From: Phorcus lineatus
Lineage: Eukaryota; Mollusca; Gastropoda; Trochida; Trochidae
Direction of reading: 5' to 3'
Assembly: GCA_921293015.1 (NCBI GenBank)
Contig: OV121094.1
Span: forward strand, 1,912,764-1,976,763
Length of the DNA stretch: 64,000 nt
A program made the position numbers and the translations under genes. This document shows, in pieces, positions 2,661-36,359 of this stretch (within the stretch, counting starts at the first letter, position 1; every line of letters begins with the position of its first letter). The notes beneath the pieces were generated by a model. It was not told where the DNA came from, made no database searches, and worked only from the letters and a program-made list of their open reading frames with translations.

Positions 2661-2707
2661 TAAATATACAAAACTAAGCGAGCGGACAATTCTGGACGCC
2701 TATCAGT

Positions 2708-2921
2708 ATGGTTCGGGTATTTGATTGTCACAGTTTCAAGGCGAAGAAGGTCATTCCAATTCAAGATGAGCCTTTAGCGATCTGTTCGGATGAGAAGCAC
2801 GTGTTTGTAGCGACGAGGCGTTGTACAGTTGTTGTTTACGCTAAAACGGAGGACGCATTCAAGGAAACGACACGATTTGATACGATATCACTTGTGGAGA
2901 AACTACTGTATAACACGGCGA
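2708..2921 (+). CDS. HPS3: HPS3 coding exon 1
   Basis: Encodes residues 1-71 plus one base: start of the N-terminal propeller-like domain (M-V-R-V-F-D). The donor is GCGA|GTGAGT, phase 1. The frame stays open past the donor to 3076, but that extension does not resemble HPS3. Confidence 0.9.
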
Positions 2922-17900: not shown

Positions 17901-20900
17901 TGAGCTGTGCTCACTTCTGCCTTGTTCAAAACATTCTTTCTTTCTTTTTCTTTTCTCCAGTCACTTCTTTGTTGGGAGCAGACGTCCCACGAGCTGTGTC
18001 AGAGCGTCTGTCATCAGATCCAGTCAGAACCAGATCTAGCAGGCTGGGATTCAATATGGCTACTATGTACACGTCTGCTTGACTGGAAGCAAGCAACAGA
18101 GTTCTTCATTGACCGATACCCAGCTCTCGTCCCTCTTTTTGCTTCGTCTACATACAAAACGGAGAAGGAACAGGTAGTCAAGATGAACACATAACCTTCC
18201 CCAGAGGCTTTTCATGTTACCTCTGTTACCGATGGCCCATTTTTCTCAGTTCTTTCAATTTCTCCAGCAGGGAAGTTTGCAAAACACACAAATTCTTCCA
18301 TGTTTTGAAAAGATTTCCACTACTGACTTTAAAAAGAGTTTATTCACTCAGCAACTAGAGTCGGAAGTGGTGTAAATGTCCAGGTGGAGGAGTCAAGGCA
18401 GCCAGCACAGTCAGTACAGGGTTCGATTTAGCCATTAACAACTTACACTTATGCAGGTCAATTTTTGCAAGTAAAATCTACAAGCAGGTTACACCAGGTG
18501 CTAGTAACAGTAAAAGTGATGGCTTCAAAGCACGGAATCAGTGAGCCATGGCGCTTCTCTGAAGTTTTCAAGTCTGATTAAAATCAACCTTATTCCGAGG
18601 AATAAAAGTTGAAAAAAGTATTCTACCCAGATTTGAACTCATTCCATCAGGGGCTTTCCTCCACACAGCAGCCTCATCGCTCACACTTTCTGACACCAGT
18701 TTAGCGCAGACAAAATACTAGTACTCAGTGAACCAATCACATCATCGACATTTAGAAGGATGGCCTCAATCAAGTTTAACGAATGATTCAGGGAAGGTAC
18801 TTGCCCTTAGCTACTGACAGTTAAGGCTTTTTTCAGAGTTGGTGTGATTGGCTGAAATGTCAGAACATGAGAGTTTCTTGGCTGCATTCAGACCGCTGTG
18901 GAGATGAAAAGCGCTTTAGAGAACAATTTTAAATTCTGGTAAAGTCTTTTTTTTTCATCTTTTATATCTTGGAACAAGGTCAATTTTAATCAGACAGAAA
19001 GTTTTCAACATGTGTTCAAGAAGCAATATGCGTGTTGACAAAATGTTGAATTTCTCTCTCCAGTGGCAGTACTGTCTGCGATGTCTGGAGGCCGCCCTGA
19101 AGGAACTACCCTCGTCAAGACAGGGAGAAGGAGAGGAGGTGTTCGTAAAGACGTACAGGGGTACGTCAGATGTGCTCCATTCATACTTTATCTCATTCTT
19201 TATCTCATGAAATTGATGCATCATGAAATTCAAATGTTGGTCAAAACATTCTGGGTACATCAGATTTGCTCTCTTCATATTTTACACCAAATAGATACGT
19301 AATGTTGTTCCTAAAGGGTGACTTGAGGAAATTTTCACACATTTTTATACCCCCGCCTTACAGCGTAAGCGGGGGTATATAGCGTTCATTCTGTCCGTCC
19401 GTCTGTCTGTCTGTCCGTCTGTCTGTCCGTCCGTCCGTCACAAATCTTTGTCCGGAGCATATCTCCTAAACTATACATGCTAGCTTCACCAAACTTCATA
19501 CACTTATCAACCATGATCCTTAGATGTGCCTTTTGAGGGTTAGACCAACAAATGATTTTTATTTTTTGCAGTTTCCATGGAAACATGACTAAAACAGTGA
19601 CTCTATGACCAAGTCCTTTGTCCGGAGCATATCTCCTAAACTATACATGCTAGCTTCACCAAACTTCATACACTTATCAACCATGATCCCTAGATGTGCC
19701 TTTTGAGGGTTAGACTAACAAATGATTTTTATTTTTTGCGGTTTCCATGGAAACATGACTAAAACAGTGACTCTATGACCAAGTCCTTTGTCCGGAGCAT
19801 ATCTCCTAAACTATACATGCTAGCTTCAACAAACTTCATACACTTATCAACCATGATCCCTAGATGTGCCTTTTGAGGGTTAGACCACCAAATGATTTTT
19901 ATTTTTTGAGGTTTCCATGGAAACATGACTAAAACAGTGACTCTATGACCAAGTCCTTTGTCCTGAGCATTTATCCTAAACTATACATGCTATCTTCATC
20001 AGACTTCATACACTTATAAAACATGATCCCTAGATGTGATTTTAAGGGTTAGATCAACAAATGATTTTTATTTTTTGAGGTTTCCATGGAAACATGACTT
20101 AAACAGTGACAAAGTCCTTTGTACGGAGTATATCTTCATAACTATACATGCTATCTTTACCAAACTTCATACACTTATCAACCATGATCCATTGATGTGC
20201 CTTTTGAGGGTTAGACCAACAAATGATTTTTATTTTTTTTGCGCTTTCCATGGAAACATGACTAAAACAGTGAATTTATGACTAAGTCCTTTGTCCAGAG
20301 TATATCTTCTAAACCGTACATGCTATCATCACCAAACTTCATTCACTTATCCATATTGGTGCGTCTCTTGAGGGTAAGACCAAAAAATTATTTTTATTTT
20401 TTGCGTTTTACATGGAAACGTTACTAAAACAATGACTATCTGACAAAGTGCTTTTTCCTGAGCATATCTTCTAAACTATACATGCTAGCTTCAACAAACT
20501 TAATACACTTATCAACCATGATCCCTAAGTGAGCTTTTTGAGGGTAAGACCAACAAAGAAAGCCAGACTATAGTTTGAAGCGGGGGTATGTGAGCTGTGC
20601 TCATTTCTTTACTTGTTGTTTTGGTGTCCCTTACAAATGTTATCAGTCAGATACCTTTACGATTATTGATCTGACCTCCTAATCTGATCTCCGAGGAACA
20701 ACATGGTATGTTTCCCAGTTTAGCGTGAAGTTACTTAGTGAAGGAGAAATATTTGCAACACATCTGGAATAAAAAGTAACAGTAACTTCAAGTCAATAAA
20801 AGAGTGATTCCACCATTTTCCAGGAATAGGTATAAGTTTATTTCCCTGATGTTCCTAAAATATAGGAAATGTTTCAGATATACTCCAGGAACTGGCAGAG

Positions 20901-21056
20901 TTACTTGCCCCTGAGGACTTTTTGAATCTGTTGCCAACGGACGGGAGTTTCGCATTCATGTTACCGTACATCACACACTGCTTCAAGCAACTACAGACCA
21001 ACCAACTCAAGGCTCAGATTGTGCAGAAGGGCTTCGTCATGGTCGCTAAACATTAG
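2708..21056 (+). CDS. HPS3: HPS3, BLOC-2 complex subunit (23 exons, 1132 aa)
   Basis: HPS3 with HPS5 and HPS6 forms BLOC-2, a cytosolic complex that directs endosome-derived carriers to lysosome-related organelles such as pigment granules. Coding exons: 2708-2921, 4329-4818, 5040-5437, 5831-5944, 6176-6351, 7135-7251, 7783-7904, 8609-8675, 9674-9843, 10464-10572, 11236-11322, 11977-12073, 12730-12793, 13356-13443, 13977-14054, 14395-14493, 15253-15319, 16220-16254, 16569-16658, 17193-17408, 17961-18173, 19064-19160, 20866-21056. They total 3399 nt in a single frame, and all introns are GT-AG. Blocks resembling human HPS3 include YLDVVEIP (human MYIIEMP), HLILLTK (human HIILLTK), LPYYMMSNLS (human LPYYKMSGLS) and the C-terminal DFLNLLPTDGS (human DFMNVLPEDGT). 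The product is longer than human HPS3 (about 1004 aa), mainly through a Ser/Thr-rich linker (exon 3) and an insert in exon 20. The start is the first ATG of the frame, with A at -3 and G at +4. Identity is nearly certain; exact exon edges are predictions. Confidence 0.95.
2999..3024. repeat. TA microsatellite in HPS3 intron 1
   Basis: A short (TA)n run followed by CCGTTACGATTACG. The longer TA run at 27975-28048 is also followed by CCGTTA, which hints that both mark edges of the same repeat family. Confidence 0.8.
3260..3572 (-). mobile_element. Penelope-like fragment between two TA runs
   Basis: About 280 bp lie between two (TA)n runs (3260-3278 and 3557-3571). On the minus strand, positions 3404-3381 show a hammerhead-type core: CTGAAGA, a stem GGCTC-GTT-GAGCT, then GAAA. 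Penelope-like elements often carry such cores and insert in TA repeats. The stem has one G-U pair, and I could not place stems I and III, so this is a likely relic. Confidence 0.45.
4329..4818 (+). CDS. HPS3: HPS3 coding exon 2
   Basis: The largest exon, residues 72-235, completes the N-terminal domain. It contains YIRVYLNW (human LRAYVNW) and YLDVVEIPV. The acceptor is CTTGCAG and the donor GGAG|GTTTGT is weak. A GCAG|GTAAAT donor-like site at 4458 lies inside the exon; reading through it is favoured because the homology continues. The human clathrin-binding LLDFE stretch has no clear counterpart. Confidence 0.88.
5040..5437 (+). CDS. HPS3: HPS3 coding exon 3 (low-complexity linker)
   Basis: Residues 235-368, rich in Ser, Thr, Asp and Gln, probably a disordered linker between the propeller part and the middle domain. 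The acceptor is GCTTGCAG and the donor AGAG|GTAGGA. It matches the place of the variable hydrophilic linker in vertebrate HPS3 but has little sequence similarity. Confidence 0.85.
5831..5944 (+). CDS. HPS3: HPS3 coding exon 4
   Basis: Residues 368-406, including TDTDMREDWRQVMLLPSYLP. The acceptor is TATGCAG and the donor CCAG|GTTTCT; both junctions are phase 1 or give a closed frame with the neighbours. Similarity to human is low here, so support comes from phase and position. Confidence 0.8.
6176..6351 (+). CDS. HPS3: HPS3 coding exon 5
   Basis: Residues 406-464. MCCFVSGSRGGCLYSLYP aligns with a human LFCFFSLPHVGYLY-type strand. The acceptor is TCTCCAG and the donor CAAG|GTACCA, phase 0. 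Confidence 0.88.
7135..7251 (+). CDS. HPS3: HPS3 coding exon 6
   Basis: Residues 465-503. VIPNNGLLQVAT aligns with human VITSNNLQCFTV. The acceptor is TCCCCAG and the donor CAAG|GTATGT; both junctions are phase 0. Confidence 0.92.
7783..7904 (+). CDS. HPS3: HPS3 coding exon 7
   Basis: Residues 504-543. The C-L-I-G-I-Q-P-F-I-G stretch and DHLILLTK align with human ALRIQLFIG and NHIILLTK. The acceptor is TTTTTAG and the donor ACAG|GTGATT, phase 2. Confidence 0.93.
8180..8290. repeat. Short inverted repeat in HPS3 intron 7
   Basis: Arms at about 8180-8208 and 8258-8290 both hold AACAGNNG, GACTT and TCAAGGCTTTGA in opposite orientation, with a spacer of about 50 bp. It looks like a small foldback element. 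Confidence 0.6.
8609..8675 (+). CDS. HPS3: HPS3 coding exon 8
   Basis: Residues 544-566. WGLYALQTCSPVDLYRDM aligns with human WNLYIVNTISPVQLYKEM. The acceptor is GCCCCAG and the donor ATATG|GTGAGT, phase 0. Confidence 0.93.
9674..9843 (+). CDS. HPS3: HPS3 coding exon 9
   Basis: Residues 567-623. YIHLVQEAHLHIK aligns with human CIHLLSEAHLLVR, and ESCALLGEFYS with ESCGHLGDCYS. The acceptor ATGGCAG has a poor pyrimidine tract, but the homology fixes it. The donor is CACT|GTAAGT, phase 2. Confidence 0.92.
10105..10185 (-). repeat. tRNA-derived SINE head in HPS3 intron 9
   Basis: On the minus strand there is a polymerase III B-box GGTTCGATTCC (10130-10120) and, about 20 bp upstream, an A-box-like TGGCTGAATGGG (10161-10150). 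It does not fold as a complete tRNA by eye, so a SINE remnant is more likely than a tRNA gene. Confidence 0.6.
10464..10572 (+). CDS. HPS3: HPS3 coding exon 10
   Basis: Residues 623-659. CLPYYMMSNLSLEDIV aligns with human TLPYYKMSGLSMAEVL, one of the most conserved blocks. The acceptor is GTCACAG and the donor ACTG|GTACAA, phase 0. Confidence 0.93.
10770..11060. repeat. G-rich duplicated block in HPS3 intron 10
   Basis: Two or three diverged units share GGGGTTCACACTTT and AATTCAAAAGGAGG words. A run of 14 G lies near 10908-10921. The 63-codon open frame here is repeat-driven. Confidence 0.6.
11236..11322 (+). CDS. HPS3: HPS3 coding exon 11
   Basis: Residues 660-688. YGKGLLYYLNYILF aligns with human YERGLIFYINHSLY. 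The acceptor is GTTGCAG and the donor GGAG|GTCAGT, phase 0. Confidence 0.92.
11977..12073 (+). CDS. HPS3: HPS3 coding exon 12
   Basis: Residues 689-721. V-L-R-I-Y-M-E-T-E-P followed by LSHVIL aligns with human VVQMFYVAEP followed by VPHIL. The acceptor is ATTGTAG and the donor CCAG|GTTAGT, phase 1. An overlapping open frame at 11913-12179 is a shadow. Confidence 0.92.
12295..12490 (+). mobile_element. Penelope-like end with hammerhead-type core
   Basis: At 12303-12335 the sequence reads CTGATAA, then a stem GGGGTC-AAAC-GACCCC, then GAAAC and the cleavage-type triplet GTC. This matches a type I hammerhead layout, but conserved G8 is A, so it is probably inactive. Downstream words AATAAAAAGGTTGTTATCC and ACTTCTAAAATGCC recur in the same order at 22024-22098. 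It lies in HPS3 intron 12. Confidence 0.55.
12730..12793 (+). CDS. HPS3: HPS3 coding exon 13
   Basis: Residues 721-742 (E-V-A-M-E-L-M-T-K-W-L). It corresponds to the human TAMSYLRKL helix region. The acceptor is CTTAACAG and the donor CGAG|GTATGT, phase 2. Confidence 0.87.
13356..13443 (+). CDS. HPS3: HPS3 coding exon 14
   Basis: Residues 742-771, a helical segment with LLAMVKLDLLLVDLDAARTA, which fits the solenoid part. The acceptor is ACATTTAG and the donor GGAG|GTAAGT, phase 0. Confidence 0.88.
13977..14054 (+). CDS. HPS3: HPS3 coding exon 15
   Basis: Residues 772-797 (LILMCAVHPNLIHRDYTEF). It matches the human LVCGFILEPRLLIQQ region. The acceptor is CTTGCAG and the donor TCAG|GTTAGA, phase 0. 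Confidence 0.89.
14395..14493 (+). CDS. HPS3: HPS3 coding exon 16
   Basis: Residues 798-830. Q-H-R-P-G-T-F-L-H-V-L-V aligns with human KETQPGLLVASVL. The acceptor is CTGTGTAG and the donor CCAG|GTCGGT, phase 0. Its 3' end is copied 157 bp downstream, where the donor GT has become GG. Confidence 0.9.
14600..14725 (+). pseudogene. Partial tandem copy of HPS3 exon 16 and its donor
   Basis: The words TTTCAAACTCCTCCAG (ending 14650) and TTCTAGATTTAGCAA repeat the end of exon 16 and the start of intron 16, shifted by 157 bp. At the copied exon edge the donor GT reads GG, so the copy cannot be used as an exon with that donor. A weaker third copy may start near 14780. Confidence 0.65.
15253..15319 (+). 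CDS. HPS3: HPS3 coding exon 17
   Basis: Residues 831-852, including MYNNSHIKDYLEILV. It corresponds to the human TIPQLLVDFWEAQLV region. The acceptor is GGATACAG and the donor AGTG|GTGAGT, phase 1. A G-rich minisatellite starts about 20 nt past the donor. Confidence 0.87.
15340..15895 (+). repeat. G-rich minisatellite in HPS3 intron 17
   Basis: About 550 bp of imperfect units of roughly 25-45 bp, each with a GGCAGGGGTAGGGG-like or TTTGCAATGATAGGGG-like word. The G-rich strand is the coding strand of HPS3, so the transcript would be G-rich and could form quadruplexes or R-loops. Open frames on the opposite strand (Pro-rich) come from the repeat and are not genes. Confidence 0.9.
16220..16254 (+). 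CDS. HPS3: HPS3 coding exon 18 (35-nt microexon)
   Basis: Residues 853-864 (D-I-K-R-Q-Y-I-F-E-E-A-A). The acceptor TTTTTTCTCAG is strong and the donor is TGCT|GTAAGT, phase 0. It is very short, but the frame needs it, since exons 17 and 19 do not join in phase without it. Confidence 0.85.
16569..16658 (+). CDS. HPS3: HPS3 coding exon 19
   Basis: Residues 865-894 (QLLSEIYIHRTIHGAPLI). It corresponds to the human VLQELFFKLTSQYI region. The acceptor is TGTGACAG and the donor GATG|GTGGGT, phase 0. Confidence 0.88.
17193..17408 (+). CDS. HPS3: HPS3 coding exon 20 (insert with Cys cluster)
   Basis: Residues 895-966. Most of it has no human counterpart and is Ser/Gly/Pro-rich; NEDLLKL at the end aligns with human SEDLINA. 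Residues 953-958 read C-P-C-C-F-C, a cysteine cluster that might bind metal or be lipid-modified. The acceptor is CTTACAG and the donor ACAG|GTAAAT, phase 0. Confidence 0.85.
17890..17930 (+). repeat. Detached 3' end of the tandem-repeat element
   Basis: ATGTGAGCTGTGCTCACTTC followed by CTTGTT repeats the right end of the 19.35-20.62 kb element (20588-20618, ATGTGAGCTGTGCTCATTTC). It sits just before the pyrimidine tract of HPS3 exon 21. Confidence 0.6.
17961..18173 (+). CDS. HPS3: HPS3 coding exon 21
   Basis: Residues 967-1037. WLLCTRLLDWKQATEFFIDR aligns with human [21 protein letters not shown], and YPALVPLFA with CPEAVIPYA. The acceptor is TTCTCCAG and the donor ACAG|GTAGTC, phase 0. Confidence 0.92.
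19064..19160 (+). CDS. HPS3: HPS3 coding exon 22
   Basis: Residues 1038-1070. WQYCLRCLEAALKEL aligns with human WWKKLLPELCQRI. The acceptor is TCTCCAG and the donor AGGG|GTACGT, phase 1. Confidence 0.88.
19345..20620 (+). mobile_element. Nonautonomous element with 170-bp tandem core
   Basis: It begins with a hairpin (TACCCCCGC ... GCGGGGGTA, 19350-19379), then a TCCG/TCTG microsatellite (19395-19440), then seven tandem units whose TCCGGAG-like words start at 19451, 19621, 19791, 19961, 20122, 20294 and 20456 (period 161-172 bp). It ends with GAAGCGGGGGTATG and a CTTGTT tail. The layout resembles bivalve pearl-type or Helentron-derived elements. It fills most of HPS3 intron 22. Confidence 0.75.
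20866..21056 (+). CDS. HPS3: HPS3 terminal coding exon 23
   Basis: Residues 1070-1132 and stop TAG. A-P-E-D-F-L-N-L-L-P-T-D-G-S followed by FMLPYITHC aligns with human LKDFMNVLPEDGT followed by FFLPYLLYC. The tail after F-K-Q-L-Q is about 20 residues longer than the human end. The acceptor is AATATAG. The stop region is partly duplicated 160 bp downstream. Confidence 0.93.
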
Positions 21057-21180
21057 TTTATGAATTCAATTTCATAAAGCTACGAGTGTTAGTCAAGCAG
21101 TGTTTGAAAAAGCTTCTTACCCTTTGGCTAATTGCTGTTCACTTCACATGGGGCCAGTTGCACAAATAGGGCTCACATGG

Positions 21181-21240
21181 GTGTAGGAGGAGTTTGTTAT
21201 GGTCGCTAATCATTTGTGTATGAAACCAACAGTATAAAGC
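21181..21240 (+). repeat. Diverged copy of the HPS3 stop region in the 3' flank
   Basis: TTATGGTCGCTAATCATTTG at 21197-21216 repeats TCATGGTCGCTAAACATTAG at 21037-21056, shifted by 160 bp; upstream GTGNAGNAGG words also match. The stop codon TAG reads TTG in the copy. It is a local tandem duplication in the likely 3' UTR. Confidence 0.7.
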
Positions 21241-21574
21241 AAAAAGTGTTGCCTGCTTCTCAGACAACTGTAAAATCAAGATGAGGCCAGTTTCTCTGGT
21301 GACAAGCAAGATTGTCTGGTTTGTTTGATTTTTCATAAACTAAGTGTCAATATCACAGGGTCAGTCAATTCGGAGAATACTCAAACAGGGAGCCCTGTTG
21401 CGTGAAAGAAAAGTATTTTGTAAACTGCTTTCAAGTTGAATTCATTTTTTTAAAAACTAAAAAGTATGTGGTACCAGCTTCATTATCTGTGTGATTACCA
21501 GTAGTTGGTCATGGGGGGTTCTGGGTCTTCAACCCACATCCTTTCGGAAATTATTTTAGAAAATCACGATGTGG

Positions 21575-21625
21575 AGCACTGGGGTGAAGTGGTAATAATG
21601 CTGGCCTCTCAATCTAGGCGGGGCA
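21575..21625 (+). repeat. Possible SINE relic
   Basis: GTGGTAATAATGCTGGCCTC resembles the 5' head of the tRNA-like SINE at 53881-53930 (TTAATGCTGGCCTC). A GGTACCTGA word follows downstream in both. No intact B-box is visible, so this is weak. Confidence 0.35.
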
Positions 21626-21913
21626 CCAAAATTTTGTGACATGAAGTTTTAACAATGCATTTTATCCACATTGCACCAAGTTCACTAATGGGTACCTGAA
21701 CATTGGAAGTCTCGCTTAGAGCTGAGTAGCCGTGCTGCATTGAAAGAATGGTCCGTTTAGTGTAACAATGCACAGCCAAAGACGAGACCTGGCAGGAGAT
21801 ATCAGGCTCATCAGGCTCATCCGTTTACTGCATGACAAAGTGAAAGTTTAAAAACGCAATTTGGATTTTGAAAACCAGATAGTTCTGGCAGACATCAAAT
21901 AAAGAAATGTAAA

Positions 21914-22100
21914 ATATTGATGGATTAACAACTTCTTTATTGCAAGAGATGCGACGTTTGGGAGTATCATCACTTGCTTGATAACAGTGTTAGTATCTAC
22001 ACCGAAACATGGCATCTCTTTCCAATAAAGAAGTTGTTAATCCATAAATTTTCTATTTCTTCATCATACCAACTTCTAAAATGCCACTCAAAGAAGTCAT
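21914..22100 (+). mobile_element. Penelope-like fragment with 33-bp hairpin
   Basis: Arms at 21920-21952 and 22012-22045 are inverted repeats (ATGGATTAACAACTTC and GAAGTTGTTAATCCAT) that differ by little more than one inserted base. The loop holds TTGATAA, a GTGT/ACAC stem and GAAAC (21979-22008), a degraded hammerhead-like core. Downstream ACTTCTAAAATGCC links it to 12295-12490. It lies in the HPS3 3' flank. Confidence 0.55.
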
Positions 22101-22806
22101 CAAAAACTTTAACATAATTTTTTTTTATATTCATCCAAAGCAGGCAGAAGAACAGATTAGACTTAATCGTGTTTGATAGGTGGTATAACTAGTATTTATG
22201 TAACTTGAACTTATGATTTTAGCTTCTGCACATACAGGCTGTTATTCAGTATTCATTGAAAACTATTGATTGTTGCAATTTTGGAATTTTAGAGGAATAC
22301 GTGAGATATTTTCAACTGATGTCAGCATGTGTGGTATTTGGGAATATAAAAGTCAAATGCAATGTGAAGAAAATCATTGAGTGTCCCTTTATAGGTTAAC
22401 AGTTTGTTGTGTCATTTTACTTTTACTTTTATATTAAATTACAGAATTTATAAAGGTTGACATATTTGACTCTACCAACACTCTTTGTGCCCCCATTAAC
22501 TGATATAGCTGAGTCAGTCATGTAGAAAATTCTCTCTTCCTTTATTACAAAAACTTTGATTTCCTAAACTTTGTATGATAAAGGTTCCAAGGTAGTTATA
22601 TCTAGTTAACAATTTGCCTTCACAGTGCATTTCTTTGGACCAATATTAAGAATAATACATTTATAACTTTTGATAGGCTTATTGATTTCATGAATCAAGT
22701 TAAGACATTTATCTGATGATTGTTTAATGTGAAAGAAAGGACTATTTTTTATGTTTTATATTTATATTTGTTGATTTAATTTTTTATTATTAATTCGTGA
22801 AAAATG

Positions 22807-22819
22807 AATAAACAATAAA
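22807..22819 (+). terminator. Candidate polyadenylation signals for HPS3
   Basis: Two AATAAA hexamers at 22807 and 22814 lie 1.75 kb after the HPS3 stop. They run into an A stretch, so they could instead be the tail of a retroposed sequence. Another AATAAA is at 21898. Confidence 0.3.
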
Positions 22820-23280
22820 AAAAAATCTATGCAAGTTGTCATTTGGTTATTAATCAATGAAGCAAAACAAAATCCATATAGGTGAAGATCATTATATTTG
22901 TGTCTGTATTGTCATATCAGTTGTAAGACAAGTGAACCATTGCAGAAACATATAGTCCAACTGATGTCTATTCATAACCAACATCTTAAAATATTAAAAA
23001 CCCCAGGACATGATAAGTAACTTATATAAAACAACCATTTGTCCAATTTCAGCCTCTGAAGCACAGTTGCGTTTTGTAAATATAATGTATGCAAAGATAA
23101 CACATTTACGCAGAAATAAGGCATGTATCTCTCAAAATACAAAGGATTAACACTTTGGGTAATCTTAGAATATCAGTTAATTAGAACAATGTAACTATGT
23201 ACATAGTATGTCCGTATTAAGACTAAAAGTAAAGACTAAAAGTAAAGACCGAACGTAATCGATGCCTATTAAAGATGTTG

Positions 23281-23325
23281 CATTCTCTCCCAACAGAGGT
23301 AGCTCCGTCATTAATTCCTATACAA
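23281..23325 (+). mobile_element. End fragment of the 417-bp MITE family
   Basis: CATTCTCTCCCAACAGAGG followed by TAGCTCCGTCAT matches the terminal inverted repeat of the intact MITE at 28275-28691. Only one end is present. Confidence 0.7.
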
Positions 23326-23422
23326 GGGAGAGGATGAAGATATTGAGAAAGTTCTCATTTTGGATAAAATTTAAGAAAAACACTAGTCCCCGCTTTGGCT
23401 AATGCAACCTTACTCTGCACGT

Positions 23423-23613
23423 GAGGTGAGGTGAGTTGGTGTTTAACGCCGCTTTCAAGGTAATTTCACTTATATCGCAGCTGCTAGTATTATTGCCTGA
23501 CTGCGTGTAGAACAGCTCTACTGCAGAAAAAGTTGCAGAGCCCCTGGCGGAATTCGAACCACGGACCTCCTGATCCGAAGCCGAACGCGCTTACCACTGC
23601 GCTATCCCGCCCC
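23423..23613 (-). mobile_element. Full-length tRNA-derived SINE with 12-bp target duplication
   Basis: The 191-bp insert is flanked by perfect copies of TACTCTGCACGT (23411-23422 and 23614-23625). On the minus strand it starts GGGCGGGATAGCGCAGTGG (A-box region), has a B-box GGTTCGAATTCC near 23540, a central part with GGCGTTAAACACCAACT, and a CTCAC simple-repeat tail. The tRNA-like head, tail and target duplication together show an intact, fairly young SINE. It lies about 420 bp upstream of the small gene's start. Confidence 0.92.
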
Positions 23614-23941
23614 TACTCTGCACGTAAGAAATCGGGGTTATGAAAAACCTTAACATATTTCATCATTTATCTCAGTTAAGAGATTAAGATACATCTTCAA
23701 ACATGCACTCATTCTTAATTCAGCTGTTTTCAACATAATAATTTGCCATTTTGTACAAAATCAGTTTTCATAATGAGGGTGACAATCATCAATCATCGAT
23801 TGTTTTTGCCATATGGCATTCTTTTACACTGATAAAAAAACGTAAGGAGAAACGGATTCCACATGATGATATTTATTTTGTTAATAAAAGGAAAAATTTT
23901 GTCTAATCTATAGATTGAAGAATATGCTAAACGAAAAGAAA

Positions 23942-23986
23942 TGACGTCATATTGATTACGACGACATTCAGGATATTGTGACGTCA
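23942..23986 (+). promoter_or_regulatory. Two cAMP-response elements upstream of the small gene
   Basis: Perfect TGACGTCA palindromes lie at 23942-23949 and 23979-23986, 88 and 51 nt before the predicted start codon. Each is the full binding site of CREB/ATF bZIP factors. Two perfect copies in 45 bp of AT-rich DNA are unlikely by chance and suggest a signal-responsive promoter. No TATA box is clear. Confidence 0.6.
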
Positions 23987-24029
23987 CGCGATTGTTGAGA
24001 CGGCAAGACACGAGCGCGATACAAGGACC

Positions 24030-24070
24030 ATGGTTCCAGCATTTCCTGTTAACTTTCCTCGTCCAAGACG
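24030..24070 (+). CDS. Small gene exon 1
   Basis: Codes residues 1-13 plus two bases. Donor GACG|GTCAGT, phase 2. The ATG has A at -3 and G at +4. Confidence 0.6.
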
Positions 24071-27000
24071 GTCAGTATCTATAAATTATCTTTACTCGAT
24101 CAAATGATATCTTTCCTGAGAATATTTGCTCTTGTTTCTAGTAACCGACGATCTTACAATCTCATCCTGTTTGAGTAAATATCATGCCTGCTACAGACGT
24201 CTTTTTAACACACACTGTTTGAGATATTGAAAGTTTGACAGATTAACGAAAAAAGTATTCCTTTGATAAATTTTAGAAAAACAAAGGCAAATATCTAATC
24301 CGTCCTACCAACCTAATGTCTCTTTGGAAGTTCGTGTATGGAAACCAGGAAATTGTCCAAGTTGCCACGTCTTAGTTTTGTTCTTGAGCTTTTGTACACG
24401 TTTCCTCAGGGACAGTAACAATACTCGTATATGCTTTAATCACAGATATTTGAAAATGTCTGATATCTTTTTGTAAACAATTAAGAGGCGCCTGGTGTAT
24501 ATCCATTATCTATGGATACTTTTCCATGGGCGTCCGTTCGGCCGTTGCATATTGTGGGGGGAGGGAGGTGATAAATTTGTAAAAAACATTTTAAAAAGAC
24601 CTGCTCGGCTCATAACTTCTAAACTAATTATCCAATTTCAATCAAATTTGGAATGAACATGCATAATTACATGAAGGTGTGTCATGATTAACAACTAAAA
24701 TTTTCCGTTTTTTTATAAAAAGATGGGGCCACTTTTAGAATACTGTCAAATCCTGTGCGGCGCACAACTTCTAAATTAAGCAACTAATATTGATCAAAGT
24801 CGGTAGTCATATACATAATCCTATGAAAGTATGTCATGATTAACGATTAAAACTTTTTCTACGTTAAAATTTTACTTTTTTCGGTAAGAAGCGGTGACTG
24901 TCAGAAAAAACAGTCTGTATTGTTCATAGTCTTTATGAACAATTTAAAAAAATATTTGTGTTTTTTGTTTTGTTTTGGAAAAGCGTTGAATTTGGAAAAA
25001 AAATGTAGTGAGTCATGTATAGATTATAGATATGTTTTTTTTGCCTGGTTAAAGGTTAAATTCATCAGATACTAATTTTTTGGGCCCAAAATAATAACAT
25101 CATAAAATACTGCTATGATCGTTCGCCTATGCTATTTTGTCTATTGGGATTTGAATGTGTATTGTGATCACAATATAAATACTCCCTTTAAATTATGCGA
25201 GTTTTGTCAAAAATATGTGGATTTCATTTTTTTAATTGAATAGTATCCTTCTCTATTTTTTTTACAACTTTGAAAATGACATAATTCAGCCAAATAATGT
25301 TAAGGATTCATTAAACGTAATACAGTCATAGAAAAATCTTAAATAGATAACACAGATAATAACTAGAATATTGTGCTAGTCGCGGGGGGTCATGTAGCTC
25401 GACCATGTCAGCTGCTGATTTCATAGCTACACGTATGTCATTAATTTTTTACTTTGCATACATGTACATCTATTAATACACATATTGATCTATAGTATAA
25501 TAATTACATATTACGGTGAACCATAACTTGACTTCAGTATTTGATTGACATGATTGAGTCATGATTTGTCATTGACATAAAGTTCTGTTTCATTTCAGTG
25601 GGAATAGTGTCGACTCCGATGCAGGGTCTGTACTAACCGTCGGTGTACAGAGTTTGTTAAACCCTCTGATTGGTCGGTTCTGGAGATGTGTCAACTGCAT
25701 ACGTAGGTTATATATGTAACTCTTTTTAAAAAAAGTTTTAAACATTTTCTCTGTTTATGTTCGGAACCGTAGATTTGTTCATTTAAACTGAAAACTATTT
25801 CTTTTGATCACTGGTATTTTGGAATACATATCCAAAGGTAAAGAGGACCCCGAAGGGCGTCCGAAGGCTTCTTAAATCTACATTTTATTGTATTGTAAAT
25901 ACAAATAAATTTGATAATAACAGCAGAATACACACGTATATCAGAAGTAAATCCTGAAAGTACAATTTATTTCTAACAAAAACAAATAAGCAGCAAATTT
26001 AAGATCACGTGATGACCAAAGTTTCCACTCTAAACGGTGTGTAGTTGTTTTTACTTCTAATTTGATTCAAATTCAAATTCATTCATTCTCAAAAATGATA
26101 AAATGATTAGATGCTTTTAGCTTGCAGAAAGAATTATCTGATAATATATCATTTATGAGTTTAAAGCGCCACCATCTAATTTTGTATCTATTTTGGTTGT
26201 AAAAAAGTGCTTTAATATGTTTCAAAATTTTATTTAGTAAGAGAAGATGTTAAAGACGACCATCGTTTTAATATCAATATTATGAAGCATCCGTAAAATA
26301 TCCCAAAAAGTCCCTATGGCGTTTCTAAAAAACAGAGATAAAGCTCTCGTCATAGCTTTGATGCAGATTTTGTGTTGATGTAGATGTATACTGATTGATA
26401 GTTTCCTGTCCTACGCTTTCCTTGTATTCATGTATAAGATGTTGATTGAGATTAAATTTGGTATTCTTTAAAACATTTGCCTATTGCCTTTCATGTTAAC
26501 GAATACAGTCGAGCACGCATGGCAGTCTTCAAATATCGCGACAGGAGTTGTTTTAAAGGGAAAGACATCATAGGAGACATCAAGAAGGAGACATAATTGA
26601 TAAAAGAGAGATAAAAAATCGTGAACCTGTTTTAACAAAACCTTTTCTTTCAAATTATGCACTTGTCATCAACACTTAGATTTATTAGATTTCTCCCTTT
26701 TAGGAATAAAATACACCTCAGGCATCCAATATCGATTATTCAAAATATAAACTCATATAATTGAAGTGGCTTTTGAATGCGAGAAAGTTTGGCAGTTTTA
26801 TGAAAAAAGTTATCAAAATCGTTGAAATATTATGAACAAATCATCACAAATTCACAGTGAGCGATTGTCAAGTCAATGCGAGACATAAGATCAATAAACT
26901 AAACTATTCGCGCAGAAGCTAAATTGGCCAAAATCAACTCTCTGTACTAAAAAAGTTAACTTTGATACTCGTGATAAATGAAATAAGTTTTTTCTCAAAT

Positions 27001-27971
27001 TGGAAAAATCTACGTTTTTCGTCGATGACGTCAGAGCGTAAGAGATACTTACACCAGTAGGATTTGCGGCACCAAAATCCATTAACTCATCAAGTGTTCA
27101 TGGGGCCAAATCAAAGATTTTGAAAGATGGGATAAAATAAGGTCAGACAGGCCTCTTTACTGTTTGCTCTTTAACTCATTTATCAAAAACAAACAAAAAA
27201 TCAAAATGCTGTATTTCAAGAATCTGAATAACTTGAAACATTCGCTCCCAAACCGACAAAATTGGAATTCTTTAAATCTTTTTAGTGGTCTGCAAGTACA
27301 GAGACTCGTTTATCTGCCTCCTCGTCATAGATATTCGTTGGTCATTATCGATTTTAAAAAAAATTGATAAAATTTTTAAAAAAATGGTAAATTAATAAAT
27401 CTTCTCAGTTACTTGCACATTTTAAAGTTCTTTGTAGCTGTTTTCATTGATATGTTTTTAACTTAAAACCCTACACGCGTCACATTTTGGTTCACATTTT
27501 CGAATCTTTTTATAACCAAAGGCCTAGCGTTGCGCATCGGATTTAAACTTACACAGAATATGTTTCATGATTTTAATGTTGATTTTAATGTAAGAGTCAA
27601 GATACTTAATGACCTGATTTAAGTCAAAATCGCTTACCTAAACTTGTATTTTTATAGCTAAAATACTAAAATTATTAATTTTCTTGTTTTCAATGATAAT
27701 CGGAAAATGACCCAATAAATGTTATGAATTAAAAAAATAGGTCCACTTAACGTGTTTTTTGGGTAAAATAACCTACTTAACACTATAAACAAATGTTTGT
27801 AATATTGTGTTTATTTATTTCATTCTAGTTCATTTTCTAGAGTTCTAAATTATTCTGTCAATTTAAACTTTTTTCCAAACTCTTTTTAATTAACAAATAT
27901 ATGTTACTACCCCAGACGAGATGCAGTTTCAAATGATAAAGAAATTATTTAATTTGTATGGTCATTATTCA

Positions 27972-28050
<79 letters not shown>

Positions 28051-28965
28051 GTTATAAGACCATTAAATAGTTCCATTTATGCAGAACACAGTAATATATT
28101 TACAGTAATAATCAAATGCATCAGCAATACGCAGACGATGTTTTATTGAGCCATTTTGCTTGTTAAATGATTTTACAACAGTTTTTCTTAATTTCCTGAA
28201 TTTTTCAGACAAACTCTTCTGTGTGAGTGAGCCTGATGATGAATTGGAAGACTGGGTCAGTGTGCTCCTTTAATCATTCTCTCCCAACAGAGTTTGCTCC
28301 GTCATAAATTCCTATACAAACCTCTGTCTTAATACGATTAAGAATGCACAATATTGCAACTTATACTACCTGGCAATATTTCAGCCAATGGAAACAACGA
28401 TTGCATGAATAACATAGTTGTTGTCACACAGGCCTGTACAATAATGCAGTCGCAAAATGAGGCGTTTGTGTTCTGTAAAGACGTGATAGTGCAAATTCGA
28501 AAAAAAAATTAGCTTTTGGAAAGCTTACGGGAATAACTTTGGCGAAATGAATGATAAATTTTGAAACGGTGTCGCTGATTGCACAACTAACTTTGATTGC
28601 ATCCAATCAGCGTTCTATATCTAGACGAAGAAACCTAGAGATCGAGGTTGTAAAGGAATATATGACGGAGCTACCTCTGTTCGGAGAGAATTCCTTTAAT
28701 AGTTAGGGAAAACATTTTCTTGTTCGGAATCAAACTGATTTCAGTGTCAATCGGCAACGGGTTAAAAGAGTTTGAAAAAATTTACGAATCGCATAAAATA
28801 TCTTTATCATTTCAAACTTCCTATTCCCATAACACATGTCTGAAATGACTGAAACAAATTCTATCACATTCACAGGTGATGGTCACAGTGCAAAGCGGCC
28901 AGCTGAGAGAGACGGTCAAAGGGGAGACAACTCCTCACACACAGGCGATGATCGAGTTCGATTAG
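24030..28965 (+). CDS. Predicted small gene, four coding exons, 93 aa, unknown
   Basis: I do not recognise this gene. Predicted exons are 24030-24070, 25599-25702, 28209-28255 and 28876-28965: 282 nt with one open frame and all GT-AG introns. The start has a near-ideal context (GACCATGG). The product starts M-V-P-A-F-P-V-N-F-P-R-P-R-R; it has a hydrophobic stretch with a basic/aromatic patch (residues 25-50, including LLNPLIGRFWR and four cysteines in 44-53 and nearby), an acidic run (56-63) and W-V-M-V at 64-67, an LC3-interacting-region pattern. It ends M-I-E-F-D. There is no signal peptide, and a membrane segment is doubtful. In exon 2 the GTAGGT donor is chosen because the alternative three bases downstream gives an early stop in exon 3. 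It could be a stress- or signal-induced adaptor, but that is inference from the motif and the two CREs. Confidence 0.6.
24535..24900 (+). repeat. Two-unit tandem repeat with CATAACTTCTAAA core
   Basis: Two units of about 150 bp share CGGCNCANAACTTCTAAA, TATACATAATNC/GCATAATTAC and GTGTCATGATTAAC/TATGTCATGATTAAC words. The core resembles the tandem unit at 19.45-20.55 kb (CATATCTCCTAAACTA), so it may be a distant relative. It lies in intron 1 of the small gene. Confidence 0.5.
25599..25702 (+). CDS. Small gene exon 2
   Basis: Codes residues 14-48 plus one base. The acceptor TTTCATTTCAG is strong; the donor is ATAC|GTAGGT, phase 1. It is the longest exon and open only with this phase. Confidence 0.6.
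27550..27705 (+). repeat. Dispersed repeat shared with 62.55 kb
   Basis: TTTCATGA, TAATGACCTGATTTAAGT, TTACCTAAA and a final TTGTTTTCAATGAT match 62555-62695 in order and orientation (there TACATGACCTGAATTAAGT and TTATCTAAA). It is an old repeat copy in intron 2 of the small gene. Confidence 0.55.
27975..28048. repeat. (TA)37 microsatellite
   Basis: An uninterrupted 74-bp TA run, 160 bp upstream of exon 3 of the small gene, followed by CCGTTA. Likely length-variable; a frame through it is an artefact. Confidence 0.95.
28209..28255 (+). CDS. Small gene exon 3
   Basis: Codes residues 49-64, ending in the acidic run E-P-D-D-E-L-E-D-W. The acceptor is ATTTTTCAG and the donor CTGG|GTCAGT, phase 0. 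A MITE is inserted 10 nt past the donor. Confidence 0.58.
28275..28691. mobile_element. 417-bp MITE with 9-bp target duplication
   Basis: The ends are inverted repeats: CATTCTCTCCCAACAGAG at the left and, reversed, ATTCTCTCCGAACAGAG at the right, continuing with GCTCCGTCATA and ATTCCTNTACAA. The flanks are a perfect TCCTTTAAT duplication (28266-28274 and 28692-28700). A 9-bp duplication fits Mutator-like elements. There is no coding capacity. Related pieces are at 23281 and 36116. Confidence 0.88.
28876..28965 (+). CDS. Small gene terminal exon 4
   Basis: Codes residues 65-93 and stop TAG (V-M-V-T-V ... M-I-E-F-D). The acceptor is CACATTCACAG, phase 0. A different open frame at 28836-29051 overlaps it but lacks a join to the earlier exons. 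Confidence 0.55.
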   Translation: MMVTVQSGQLRETVKGETTPHTQAMIEFD

Positions 28966-28999
28966 TCCAGACCTCAACCATCCAATCAACTCCCTTTCT

Positions 29000-29940
29000 G
29001 TACATAGCGATGGTTCTTGCACAAATAGAAAATGATTTACAAAAGCGCTAGTTTTGTTTAATTTCAAAAGCCGATATCCAACGTCCCGGTAGTTTCTAGT
29101 TATGTTTTAAATACAACACTACCAAACAAAAGGTATCTTTATCTGCTTTAGAAAAGTATAAAAACTACGTTTGACACTTTAGCGTGAGTCATTGACCGGT
29201 TTCCTATAATATATCGTGACTTTAACCGTTCTGGTGTCTCTGTATTGAACCAGTTAACATTATGAAGGTAATTTTCAGCAAAAGTCAGTACTGTTTGATA
29301 AATAACAGTTTTAACATTGTGGCATATTCGACCCCAACAACATACAAACATGTGTCCCTTTAAACAAATGAAGTTTTGTTCTTTAAAAAACGTCGCTATC
29401 GCATTCGCATTAGATTTAGGCTATAGCTGAGCAGAGACGGAGAGCACTAAACTGCTGATAACGAGTTCTTGAAAAATACCTATTATTGCACCGCCAAGTG
29501 CATTGAATTTACAGAAAAAACAATTTTATAAAAAGTTTAGTGTGTCATAAACTTGGATAAACTAGAAAGGTCTTTGCAGAATGTTTGTCCTAAGCTTCAG
29601 ATCTTAAGCCTCTAATAACATGGACATATCTTAACCCCTGCAAAAATTCTTGGCATCCTTGTTCTCGTAAAAATGCCACATGAAAGCTTACAACACTCTA
29701 TTCAATGGAGTTATTTAGTTGAATAAATACGATTACTGCTTAATTGGCCCTAAATCAGTTTTAAAATTGCTAAAAGCTTGCATCCAAACAGGTCATTACT
29801 GACGAAAACAAACCCTAATTAAAATTACATGCACACTGGGTTATAAAATTCAAGTTAATAGAAATTGATGTGATTTTGGAGAAACAAAGTGTGCACATTA
29901 TCTCTGAAGTTTCAAAAGATCCATCAGCAGAGAGGAGGGG
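29000..29940. other. No gene seen; flank of the small gene
   Basis: AT-rich sequence after the small gene. An AATAAA at 29723 could end its transcript. Short minus-strand frames lack splice partners. Confidence 0.4.
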
Positions 29941-31149
29941 GAGGGAGAGGAGTCCCTTCCAACGCGAAGCTATCAGCATCCGGTCCGCCATCTTGTTTTG
30001 GAGGAAATGACTGAAAAAAGGCGTTGTATTTTTACTAATTTCAAAACATTATGAAAATACACTATACGTATTGATACAATATCCACACATTTACGTATCC
30101 TTTTAAAAAGACTAATCAACTAATGCTGGGTAATGCCGCAACAATGCTTTACCTGGCACACTCGTAGCGTCGACGAATGGCTTCACTTCTCATTCTTGTA
30201 TCATTTTACCGAGTGTGCTCACTCAGTTACCTAGTCATATCTACATCAACCAAAGTGTTGCTCACATTAACATATTTCAACAGTTTTATGTTATAATCGT
30301 GTAGCACCAGATCAGATCTTTCATTTCAACTTAATTGTGTAGAGACTGGCATGAATTAAGATTTGTGTAGGACGAAAAGGGATGAGTAGTTTAGAAGATA
30401 ATAACCTTTTGTACAGTTCATGTGAATCAAAATGCTTCCCGAAAGAAGTGACATTTCTAGCAGAGTGAAATGTCACTGAAAACAGATTTATCCTATTTGA
30501 AAGTTAACTCGATGTAGTAATCTCCTCTAAACCAACTATTAACATATAAACACGTCTCATGAAAGGCTGCAACTCGACATAGATTGGACTTTATTTTCCT
30601 GTGTAATTCAATCATACATTTTATTCACAAAACCATCCCCGATCGGACCATTACTGTTTAGTGCTAGCAATAAATCGTGATAAATGCAAGCCATTTAAAA
30701 ATAATCATAACTCAAATTCAAAATGTAAAATTTGGTCATTGAAATAGTTAATGCCCTGACAACTTAAGATGCAGATTTTCATACTGAAGCACTCTCTGCG
30801 ATCAACTCCAACTCATAATAAATTTCTATTTGAACTCGCGATCACATGGTAAAATTATATTGTACCTAGGGGTGTTTCGAAAAGCCACTGTAATGTTTAG
30901 AGAGTTCATATGAAGGAGAACTTCCCGGAAGTACAAATACAAAGGGAAGCAACTGCTTTTCAATCATTATAAATATTCCAGGCTGTGCTTAATTCGTTAA
31001 AGTGGCGTACTCGCCGGACATTCGACTGGGGAACGCCGTACGCCGGGTGCCAATAAAGTGATGCGCCACTTTCGTACGCCGGGTTTCCAATCGAGCATAG
31101 TAAGGCACCTGCATGGGGGCTTTTAAGCCGATAGTTAGCCATCCTGCTA

Positions 31150-31490
31150 AATACCGTGCATCCTGATAAATCAGCGTATATGAATCCGCTCTTTCTCCTT
31201 CCCCATACCATGATCTCTTTCGGGCTCAATGTCTCGTATGGCTGTAACGACTTGATAGTCATAACTTAGTTCACCTGTTATGATTTCAGCCAATGAAATG
31301 TCGCTATGAAGGAGCGTAAAGCGAATAACTTAAGCTCAATGGATTTTCCATCTGGGTTGTGCTGCTGTCGCTGAATGCGAGTCATCTCGTTGGCTGGTTA
31401 AATAGCTAGCAATACGAGGCTTTTGGCTTGTAAGAGATCAGGGTATTAGGAAGGAGCGAGAGCGTATGGCCGGTATCATGGTTTCTTCTT
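31150..31490. mobile_element. Foldback/MITE family, copy 1
   Basis: An imperfect inverted repeat: GATCTCTTTCGGGCTC...CTCGTATGG at the left and, reversed, GATCTCTTACAAGCC...CTCGTATTGC at the right. The interior has GCTGAATGCGAGTCAT and a CATCTGGGTTGTGC word. The copy at 46830-47050 shares all of these. The 100-codon minus-strand frame over the left part is not called a gene. Confidence 0.6.
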
Positions 31491-32094
31491 ATCTATCTAT
31501 TAATAAGATTGATTGTCAATACTAACTTACTTTCCTTTTTTGCTGTGTCCGGTTTTACAATTCACAATTTAAAGAAGCATGAGTTTAACATATTTTCTGC
31601 GTGTTTCTTATTTTAACAACAAACAACAGGAACGTGCTCAAAATGAAACTGTTCGACGAGATTATGTAACAAATCCATTCAGGTTTTAAGTACCCTACTT
31701 TTTTAATATTGAAGGCATAAGAAACGGCTAGTAACCACATAATGCGACACATTCAGCAATAAAACCTCGAAAGAATTATGTGAAATTGTATTATTCACAA
31801 ACGATGGCAATGACAAAATAACAATGTTCTTGACAGCCTCCCCTAAGTCTTTATCGATTTTAACCCACTGTTTGTTTTACACAAATCAAGATGATACAAG
31901 GGTTGCACTATGAATTAAGTTTATGGGCGAATTACAAAGTAACGATCCCATAGTGAAGCTTTCGAATGTTTTACATCGCCGGAATGACATCTTATTCGTT
32001 CCCTTGATGTGACGTGTTTATATCGAGAGATTTGCACATTCACACTCCACTCCGTCATAAATACGAACCTTCAATCTAGTTCTACGACTTGACT

Positions 32095-32175
32095 CAATAC
32101 CTTATTGTGGTCTGGTGGTCTGCGAGCTTCAGAGACCCCCATGCCAGCCCGTGCTTATATGCTGCTGATGGGGTC
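32095..32175 (+). repeat. Dispersed repeat shared with 58.4 kb
   Basis: CTCAATAC, TGTGGT, TTCAGAGACCCC, GCCAGC and GCTTATATG recur in the same order, reversed, at 58370-58448. Class unknown. Confidence 0.6.
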
Positions 32176-32884
32176 AACCAAGCTAGACCGGTGGACAGGT
32201 AGAAGTCAGACCAAATTTGAGTCGTTCTAAAACCTGCTGTCTATCTCTCACTGTGCCTTTGTTTCCCACATCCTTTCGATCAGTTTCTTCCTAACCCGTC
32301 AACTCTCTTTTTGATGTTTTTCATCCACGTGATTTTAAATGTGAAATGCTGTGGAAAAAACGTTAATCCCCAAATCATTCGTTCACCCATCCCAATCAAG
32401 TTAAAACTAGCTGAAATGATCCGTCATAACATTTAGGGAATTAATGACTGAGGTCATATGATGGACTTTAAACTTGCCAATGAAATGAAGAAGCGAAGTC
32501 AGCTTTGAACAAATAATCTTATCTTATCAACAATATCTGGACAGAATTAAAGTTGCCATCATATCTTTCAACACAATGCACTGCGTTACACAGTTAACAA
32601 TCGAATTTTATATTCGAGGTGCTCAAGAACGGTGATACATTCGCATAGACCCGCGATTCGAAGTGATCGGCCAACTCTCTCATGAGTGGCTGATGTTCGC
32701 GCCTGCGTGACACAGAATAAGTGTATAATTCTCTAGATGTAATAGCGGACCAAGGGACGTAAAATATTACAGCTAATTTAACTCGACTGACAAACATCTG
32801 TCCTAATACGAGCGTTTCTCGGTCCAGATGTCCTGTCGCGTATTTTTTGTTAAAACAAAATTTAAGGGGACATTTCAATTCATA

Positions 32885-34329
32885 TACTGATGTCCAAAAG
32901 GAAGTTGACAATCAGAAAAATATGTTTTATTGAAAACAGGGTATCTTCTTCATTAAACATGAAAACAATGACATATTAATATCATCCAAAACACTAAATA
33001 CTAAAACAATAGACAAAACGCACTTTGATCAATACAATTTGGCCAAAAACGGTAAAAATGAAAAACACGCTTTTAAGTCGAGAACCACGAAATACACGTG
33101 CACAAAAGCATATAAAGTAACTGATGAGACACGTTCAGAATACAGTAGCACAAAACACACAAAAGAATGCCGAGATTATCTACCGTGCAGAGAGAACGAG
33201 CAACAATGGCGCAACAAGGAGCAAGTATCGCTGCTATTGCTGCGACCTTTAATTGCAGCCGATTTACTGTCTACAAATTAATGGAACGTTTCAGGCAAAC
33301 AGGTACGACTGCTGACAGACCTCGCAGCGGAAGACCCCGAGTGACCACGCCCATCGGAGACAGGCGTATCCGCATTATCCATCTTCGGAACCGCTTCGTC
33401 ACAGCGCCATCTACGGCAGCAACGGCACTGGGACACCGCACCAGCAGACAGTGTACAGACGTCTACGGGCCCACGGTATCCGAGCCTATAGACCCTACCG
33501 TGGAATTGTGTTGAGGCCGCATCATCGACGTAACAGACTGACGTGGGCACGACGTGTTCGACGGTGGCAGGTACGGAACTGGTAACGGGTCATGTTTTCG
33601 GATGAAAGCAGGTTTTCCTTGGTGCATGACAGTTTGGCGGTGGCAGTCTGATGGTATGGGGAGGCATTTGTGGTGACACGAAAACGAGGCTGGTGGTTAT
33701 TCAAGGAAATCTGAATGCACAGAGGTACATCGACACAGTGTTAAGACCTGTTGCGGTACCATTCCTACAGCAGCAGCAACGTGGTGCCATTTTCCAGCAT
33801 GATAATGCAAGACCACACACAGCAGCAGTCACACGAAATTTCCTGATCAACAACAACATTCAGACTCTACCATGGCCAGCCTGTTCACCGGATATGAATC
33901 CCATCGAATATTTATGGGACCAGCTGGGGAGACAAATCAGACAACGCCAGGTAGCACCAGTTAACCTTCAGGAACTGCAACAGTGTCTCCTTCAAGAATG
34001 GCAAAACATCCCCCCTAACGTCATTCCTAGACGCCCGAGGAGGACATACCAGACATTAAATCTAAGCGGAGGAACCACCATCATGTCTGTGAAAGATAAA
34101 TTGCGATTGTTCTGTTGTACCAACTTTTGAAAACACTTCGATTTTTGACCCCATGTGACTTTGCCGTATTATGGTATCATATGAGTTTCGCTGTATTGTA
34201 ATGAAATAAACTATGTTTGAGGGAAAATGATTTTTCGTGCGAAATAAACTGTTCTTTTTATCCTGTATGTCTTAGTTATTCTTCAGGGTGATTTTCTAGA
34301 CGTTGTCAACTTTCTTTTGGACAGCAGTG
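32885..34329 (+). mobile_element. Tc1-like transposon, 1445 bp, TA target
   Basis: The inverted ends read TACTGATGTCCAAAAGG at the left and, reversed, CACTGCTGTCCAAAAGA at the right, both continuing AAGTTGACAA. TA dinucleotides flank it (32883-32884 and 34330-34331). It encodes a broken transposase (separate entry) and is nested next to the right arm of the larger inverted-repeat structure. Confidence 0.9.
33167..34129 (+). pseudogene. Broken Tc1-like DD34E transposase
   Basis: The N-terminal part (33167-33450) has a helix-turn-helix with MAQQGASIAAIAATFNCSR and the GRPR hook of Tc1 transposases. The catalytic core follows in other frames: FSDESRF near 33600 (first Asp), HDNARPHTA near 33810 (second Asp) and SPDMNPIEYLWD near 33895 (Glu, 34 residues on). 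Breaks are a frameshift near 33452, a TAA stop near 33582 after R-N-W, and a deletion near 33628 that removes sequence before FGGGSLMVWGG. It cannot make an active enzyme. Confidence 0.92.
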
Positions 34330-36110: not shown

Positions 36111-36115
36111 GCCGG

Positions 36116-36245
36116 CATTCTCTCCCCACAGAGGTAGCTCCGTAATGAATTCCTATACAACCTCTGTCTTAATACGAAGGTTTCTCGGGCTTCAGGCACT
36201 TCGCCCTACCGGCGCAAAATTGCAACTTAAACTACCTGCCATTGC
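36116..36245 (+). mobile_element. MITE fragment, third copy
   Basis: CATTCTCTCCCCACAGAGG, TAGCTCCGTAATGAATTCC and ACCTCTGTCTTAATACG match the left end of the 417-bp MITE, as does the internal TTGCAACTTAAACTACCTG. A 98-codon frame across it is not called a gene. Confidence 0.75.
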
Positions 36246-36359
36246 TTTATCTTATGCTTTCCTAATCTTTGTAATTATTGTTGGAATACTAGCATTTCTG
36301 TTTTGGAGAAGGGAGAGATTTGTACTGCCCCGGGGCCCTGTGTATTGTACCGGATAACC

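Follow-up and report, generated by a model that had tools for sequence, protein, structure and literature searches.

A putative small four-exon gene of Phorcus lineatus and its candidate GABARAP docking motif

Is the interval at positions 24030–28965 of a 64 000-nucleotide stretch of DNA from the gastropod Phorcus lineatus a gene, and would the short protein that it encodes bind a member of the Atg8 family? The stretch, called the window here (C29:1912764–1976763, contig OV121094.1, in an assembly of 957.8 Mb and 74 contigs), was the subject of an earlier note which, from the letters alone, described an unrecognised gene of four exons with a motif like that of the LC3-interacting regions (LIRs) and proposed a short autophagy-linked adaptor. 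The answer that we favour, with a probability of about 0.4, is that this is a real gene of four exons and that its product would act as a small adaptor that binds GABARAP and may contact membranes through an amphipathic segment rich in Cys. Annotation readily overlooks small genes of several exons and, to our knowledge, work on autophagy adaptors in molluscs is scarce. If the protein is conserved and binds GABARAP, it would be a compact adaptor with a single motif, the docking of which a single short peptide would suffice to test, and if the motif is incidental, the locus illustrates how readily LIR patterns arise in small proteins.

Exon structure and coding character

Re-reading of the sequence confirmed that four plus-strand exons join in a single frame of 93 codons, with GT-AG boundaries at all three introns (phases 2, 1 and 0) and a terminal stop. 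Exon 1 (24030–24070; MVPAFPVNFPRPR) supplies codons 1–13 and two bases of codon 14, exon 2 (25599–25702; GNSVDSDAGSVLTVGVQSLLNPLIGRFWRCVNCI) holds most of an amphipathic segment with Cys and aromatic residues, exon 3 (28209–28255; HKLFCVSEPDDELEDW), which has its donor at 28256, carries the Trp of the motif, preceded by an acidic stretch, and exon 4 (28876–28965; VMVTVQSGQLRETVKGETTPHTQAMIEFD) contributes the TAG stop. Joined, they encode MVPAFPVNFPRPRRGNSVDSDAGSVLTVGVQSLLNPLIGRFWRCVNCIHKLFCVSEPDDELEDWVMVTVQSGQLRETVKGETTPHTQAMIEFD. The start context at the 24030 ATG, acaaggaccATGG, had been called strong and does fall within the top 0.6 % of ATGs. With splice and start matrices set to animal consensus values, the three donors rank among the best 2.3, 9.0 and 4.7 % of GTs, and the three acceptors among the best 5.8, 5.5 and 2.9 % of AGs.

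The training set for the codon log-odds comprised 778 codons in 14 segments chosen by eye as presumed parts of the upstream HPS3 gene; for five of these segments the frame has a Pfam match to HPS3, and only two of those frames exceed the cut-off. By this measure, the codon use of the model resembles that of the HPS3 segments, the whole model scoring 0.265 bit per codon and the HPS3 segments, left out singly, −0.11 to 0.75. Exon 4 is the most coding-like of the exons (16.3 bits over 29 codons; another open frame there reaches 8.3 bits). Exon 2, which has stops in both of its other frames, scores 6.5 bits; of 8100 overlapping 34-codon windows without a stop, taken from elsewhere in the window, 4.4 % score at least as high.

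An exon-chain finder applied to 23501–30500 placed exactly this model on top, for four exons as well as for two to six exons, with 50.8 bits. This score was reached by none of 60 dinucleotide shuffles of the same region and by none of 600 in a larger run, in which the maximum was 39.1 for four exons and 40.4 for two to six. Shuffling within 500-base blocks (0 of 300; maximum 42.6) and shuffling of a longer stretch, 21101–33000 (0 of 200), gave the same outcome, so that the four runs together make 0 of 1160. No second copy of the locus was found in the 957.8-Mb genome, the sole matches better than E 0.18 being its own exons (eight first-look candidates were scored); outside the locus, the search for paralogues and retrocopies returned a best match of E 0.18 with two stops, followed by E 0.95 and 4.

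The CpG observed/expected ratio peaks over a putative promoter at 23751–24200 (plus strand), where the 300-bp windows starting at 23851 and 23801 rank fifth and sixth of 1274, the value for the whole window being 0.67. The 20 highest-ranking CpG windows also include four over the first exon of HPS3 (2651–2801) and several places without a known promoter. Two copies of the palindromic cAMP response element (CRE)-type site TGACGTCA lie in this region, at 23942–23949 and 23979–23986, their first bases preceding the ATG by 88 and 51 bp. Across the window this octamer is common in general, with seven occurrences (3457, 11310, 23942, 23979, 27026, 36717 and 61675) and 0.63 expected from dinucleotides. 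Fasting induction of autophagy genes by CREB with CRTC2 has been reported (review PMC6614182; this and all papers below are cited from extracts), and CRE control of an autophagy adaptor would be plausible, but no more. The signals from start context, CpG, codons and splice sites point the same way. The four-exon model is very probably a real small gene, presumably transcribed.

A docking motif of the GABARAP-selective type

Residues 56–63 read EPDDELED and are directly followed by W64-V65-M66-V67, with Trp64 as the final codon of exon 3 and Val65 as the initial codon of exon 4, exactly as described before. EDWVMV (residues 62–67) fits both the strict cLIR and the relaxed xLIR pattern, as given in PMC5119064, and the protein contains no further match to either. 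By inspection, W-V-M-V also fits [W/F]-[V/I]-x-V, the core of the GABARAP interaction motif (GIM), which is the GABARAP-selective pattern of PMC5538626. Hence, the LIR-like motif of the earlier note stands as a sequence observation and is of a more specific type than was claimed, whereas the role in autophagy that was attached to it is something that we, too, can only infer. Two acidic residues followed by the GIM core are seen in 0.2 % of shuffles of the peptide and at two places in the six-frame translation of the window (119,884 residues), the unspliced form of the same motif being one of these places. Seven pieces matching the Atg8 family, all above the cut-off, are found on four contigs of the genome (GABARAP and LC3 types unsorted), and the partner family therefore exists in this animal.

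The pentapeptide D-W-V-M-V is identical to that of PI4K2A, which is membrane-bound through palmitoylation and in which mutation of DWVMVRE inhibits GABARAP binding and recruitment (PMC11499380). PI4K2A is a lipid kinase, whereas the candidate has 93 residues and no kinase domain, and no other similarity between the two was seen. Further GABARAP-selective LIRs are those of PLEKHM1 (EDEWVNVQY), ULK1 (TDDFVMVPA), JMY (ESDWVAVRP) and KBTBD6 (DDFWVRVAP) (PMC5538626). Like the candidate, all four have acidic residues and then [W/F]-V-x-V, though no domain was found in common with it. They are larger proteins of other kinds. The protein is thus best regarded as a candidate for another member of a known functional kind, the LIR/GIM interactors of Atg8 proteins, and not as a new kind. 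Given a real gene, we put the chance that the GABARAP motif is functional at slightly short of even.

The predicted protein is acidic (10.4 kDa, pI 5.0). Residues 33–53, LLNPLIGRFWRCVNCIHKLFC, include three cysteines and are amphipathic, with a hydrophobic moment of up to 0.61 (18 residues, 35–52). There is no transmembrane-like stretch in the protein, the best 19-residue Kyte-Doolittle mean being 0.97. In the mechanism that we propose, residues 33–53 would lie on a membrane as a peripheral contact, perhaps via S-acylation, while the acidic, presumably flexible stretch and the GIM-type EDWVMV would engage both hydrophobic pockets of an Atg8 protein of the GABARAP type. In this way, the candidate might recruit GABARAP to one particular membrane, or retain it there, as a minimal membrane–GABARAP linker, for which PI4K2A, recruiting GABARAP via the same pentapeptide, and PLEKHM1, binding it via EDEWVNV, would be the parallels. 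The paired CRE-type sites suggest that such a linker could be induced by CREB/ATF factors.

Searches of the whole peptide against Pfam gave no family at the cut-off (only Runt, at E 0.12, which we take as chance), nor did the peptide core or the form made with an alternative donor, and there was no match among PDB sequences at E up to 10. This matches the earlier statement that no named family was known for the protein, though a new family is not thereby established, as the collections hold no other animal genomes. Pattern matches in viral contigs (five) and in bacterial and archaeal contigs (101) were in no case confirmed; animal genes are not expected in either set, and these results have no bearing on conservation. 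Extracts of the literature on microproteins, oyster LIR receptors, LIRs and splicing, and mollusc HPS3 held nothing on this gene.

The family that came closest is that of TP53INP1 and TP53INP2 (DOR), autophagy proteins whose short region 1 contains an LIR of the acidic W-x-x-hydrophobic kind (PMC3314686). The candidate differs from DOR in that its LIR codons are split by an intron, those of DOR being contiguous in the DNA, and in that region 2 of the family (ESWVLTPPPCFTG...SPMENLLIEHPSMSVY in the DOR gene of this genome) is absent from its 93 residues. When the six frames of the window were scanned for the region-2 pattern L[IL]EH, a single minus-strand match at 19023 was obtained and taken as chance; the pattern ..SW[FY].. 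in the same frames would miss the genome's own ESWV. The DOR model PF14839 did not match the candidate at E up to 10. However, the genome's own presumed DOR LIR exon, taken alone, is without a Pfam match either, and an empty Pfam result would therefore not settle the question by itself. That exon, which we take for the DOR LIR exon, starts at C16:29775812, approximately 2 kb upstream of the DOR match and on the same strand, and reads ...DAELDWVLVDLPNS.

Alternative readings of the locus

Several points weigh against the favoured reading, and they are best considered together with its rivals. Taken by itself, exon 1 does not look coding (−3.6 bits for its 13 codons, below one other frame), and two of the three donors read GTCAGT, with a C at +3 that is rare in animals. 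That splice-like sites and open frames have formed a chain by chance, and that there is no gene, is nevertheless very improbable. Though three of 18 other combinations of 7-kb stretch and strand score above 50.8 (63.9, 54.8 and 51.8; two of the 18 yielded no chain), the minus strand of 21101–33000 has a best chain of two to six exons at 55.7 (four exons, 43.0) and one shuffle of that whole stretch came to 50.5, all three of the higher-scoring chains pass through Tc1/mariner-type transposase frames at 33.3–34.1 kb, not one of the 1160 shuffles reached the score of the model, and its start context, CpG, codon and splice signals are concordant. The minus-strand chain of 43.0 bits starts at 24031, at the ATG opposite that of the model; the start context ACCATGGT (24027–24034) is palindromic, and we take this start as its by-product. 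It is unlikely, too, that the exons are part of a larger or differently ended transcript, with 5' exons in 21511–23623, the donor at 28260 leading to 29051, exons near 32 kb or a retained intron 3. In 21101–33000, plus-strand chains of six exons outscore the model at 68.3, 61.9 and 60.7, the first of them starting at 21511 with other 5' exons and sharing its last two exons with the four-exon model, the others starting at 21148 and using donor 28260. When exons down to 15 bases were allowed in 21501–32500, a five-exon chain from 21511 (62.5) was preferred, with a minus-strand chain at 55.2. However, when the upstream 2.4 kb was shuffled 200 times, eight of the results came to 68.3 or more (median 50.8), and a single shuffle of 23506–23630, which resembles a short interspersed nuclear element (SINE), lowers the best chain from 68.3 to 55.8; hence, the lead of the 68.3 chain is due to the SINE-like stretch. 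As the ATG at 24030 also has the better promoter signs, the longer six-exon model was not preferred.

The main rival, which we consider nearly as probable as the favoured reading, accepts the gene and holds the LIR to be incidental. The product would then be a small protein that is specific to the lineage and has another function, such as a membrane-associated or Cys-stabilised peptide. LIR patterns are unspecific, and the iLIR authors themselves caution that xLIR may not suit whole-genome scans owing to false positives (PMC5119064). When the peptide was shuffled, xLIR appeared in 14.5 %, cLIR in 1.9 % and the bare GIM core in 13.0 % of cases, and the motif statistics are all after the fact. 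Moreover, DWVMV of PI4K2A lies in a loop of the kinase domain, so that the identity of five residues is not homology, and membrane contact is suggested by a hydrophobic-moment sum only. On the other side stand the joint rarity of acidic pair and GIM core in the shuffles and the fact that the five residues are identical to a published GABARAP determinant. That the gene is a diverged paralogue or a fragment of TP53INP/DOR is the least probable of all. There is a general likeness between the presumed DOR LIR exon, ...AELDWVLVDLPNSG, and the candidate, ...DELEDWVMVTVQSG, but the score of their alignment, 30, is reached by 6.3 % of 3000 shuffles. A separate DOR gene with region 2 intact is present at C16:29773257–29773736 (107.5 bits), the only place matched in the genome, and invertebrates have one TP53INP/DOR gene, with the family regions 1 and 2 (PMC3314686). 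With region 2 lacking from the candidate, membership of this family was rejected.

Intron 3 and the surrounding sequence

The earlier view that splicing is needed for the motif to exist proved to be wrong. When intron 3 is retained, exon 3 reads on as DWVSVLL-stop (V-S-V-L-L-stop from 28256–28273, plus strand, the stop being 28271–28273), and W-V-x-V is kept, so that the unspliced form still fits both LIR and GIM. An alternative donor lies 4 nt downstream at 28260 and is weaker, being equalled by 18.3 % of GTs; its product reads WVSD, without the second hydrophobic residue, and has a different C-terminus ending at 29051. Within 23501–30500, the chain that uses it is the second best (37.1), a point in favour of a differently ended transcript. 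A second GT is, however, inherent in any donor whose positions +5 and +6 are G and T, and the donor at 28260 is therefore no sign of regulation.

From these forms one might construct an adaptor for GABARAP that is specific to the lineage, is shorter than 100 residues and has its docking motif at a splice junction, switchable by splice choice. Normal splicing would give WVMV and a tail of 26 residues, retention of intron 3 would leave WVSV nearly at the C-terminal end, and use of the donor 4 nt downstream would give WVSD with another tail, such that binding to GABARAP, and the manner of it, would depend on the choice of splice site. We consider such a switch a long shot.

Intron 3 also contains a miniature inverted-repeat transposable element (MITE), outside the coding parts of the gene. 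The element itself (28275–28691) has terminal inverted repeats of 44 nt and is flanked by a perfect 9-bp duplication, TCCTTTAAT, at 28266–28274 and 28692–28700, the whole occupying 28266–28700. The stop reached by read-through into intron 3 falls inside this duplication and the empty site is identical up to the stop; read-through therefore predates the insertion of the MITE. It is a high-copy element, matched by at least 110 pieces of the genome when 40 of the 5006 first-look candidates were scored, and a further (third) copy of its inverted end lies at 23282–23325.

Upstream of the candidate, on the plus strand, is the HPS3 (Hermansky-Pudlak syndrome 3) gene, at 2678–21053. Matches to HPS3_N of Pfam are above the cut-off in two frames (2678–4912), and those to HPS3_C, at 10348, 17904 and 20859–21053, are below it. 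The last of these covers positions 463–501 of 503, and HPS3 thus seems to end approximately 3 kb before the candidate. A tandem array of units of approximately 170 bp (19436–20572) lies shortly before this last match.

Rfam found nothing in the window at gathering scores. At approximately 23500–23620, the minus strand resembles the head of a tRNA-derived SINE and includes GGTTCGAATTCC, presumably a B-box-like pattern, though ARAGORN calls no tRNA, there or elsewhere in the window. An open frame at 36037–36354 (plus strand), without a Pfam match, has one strong hydrophobic stretch, ALSYAFLIFVIIVGILAFLFWRRERF, like that of a single-pass membrane exon. Between this frame and the candidate, at 33149–34127 (plus strand), are transposase pieces, HTH_28 followed by DDE_3, in two frames, which we take to be of the Tc1/mariner type.

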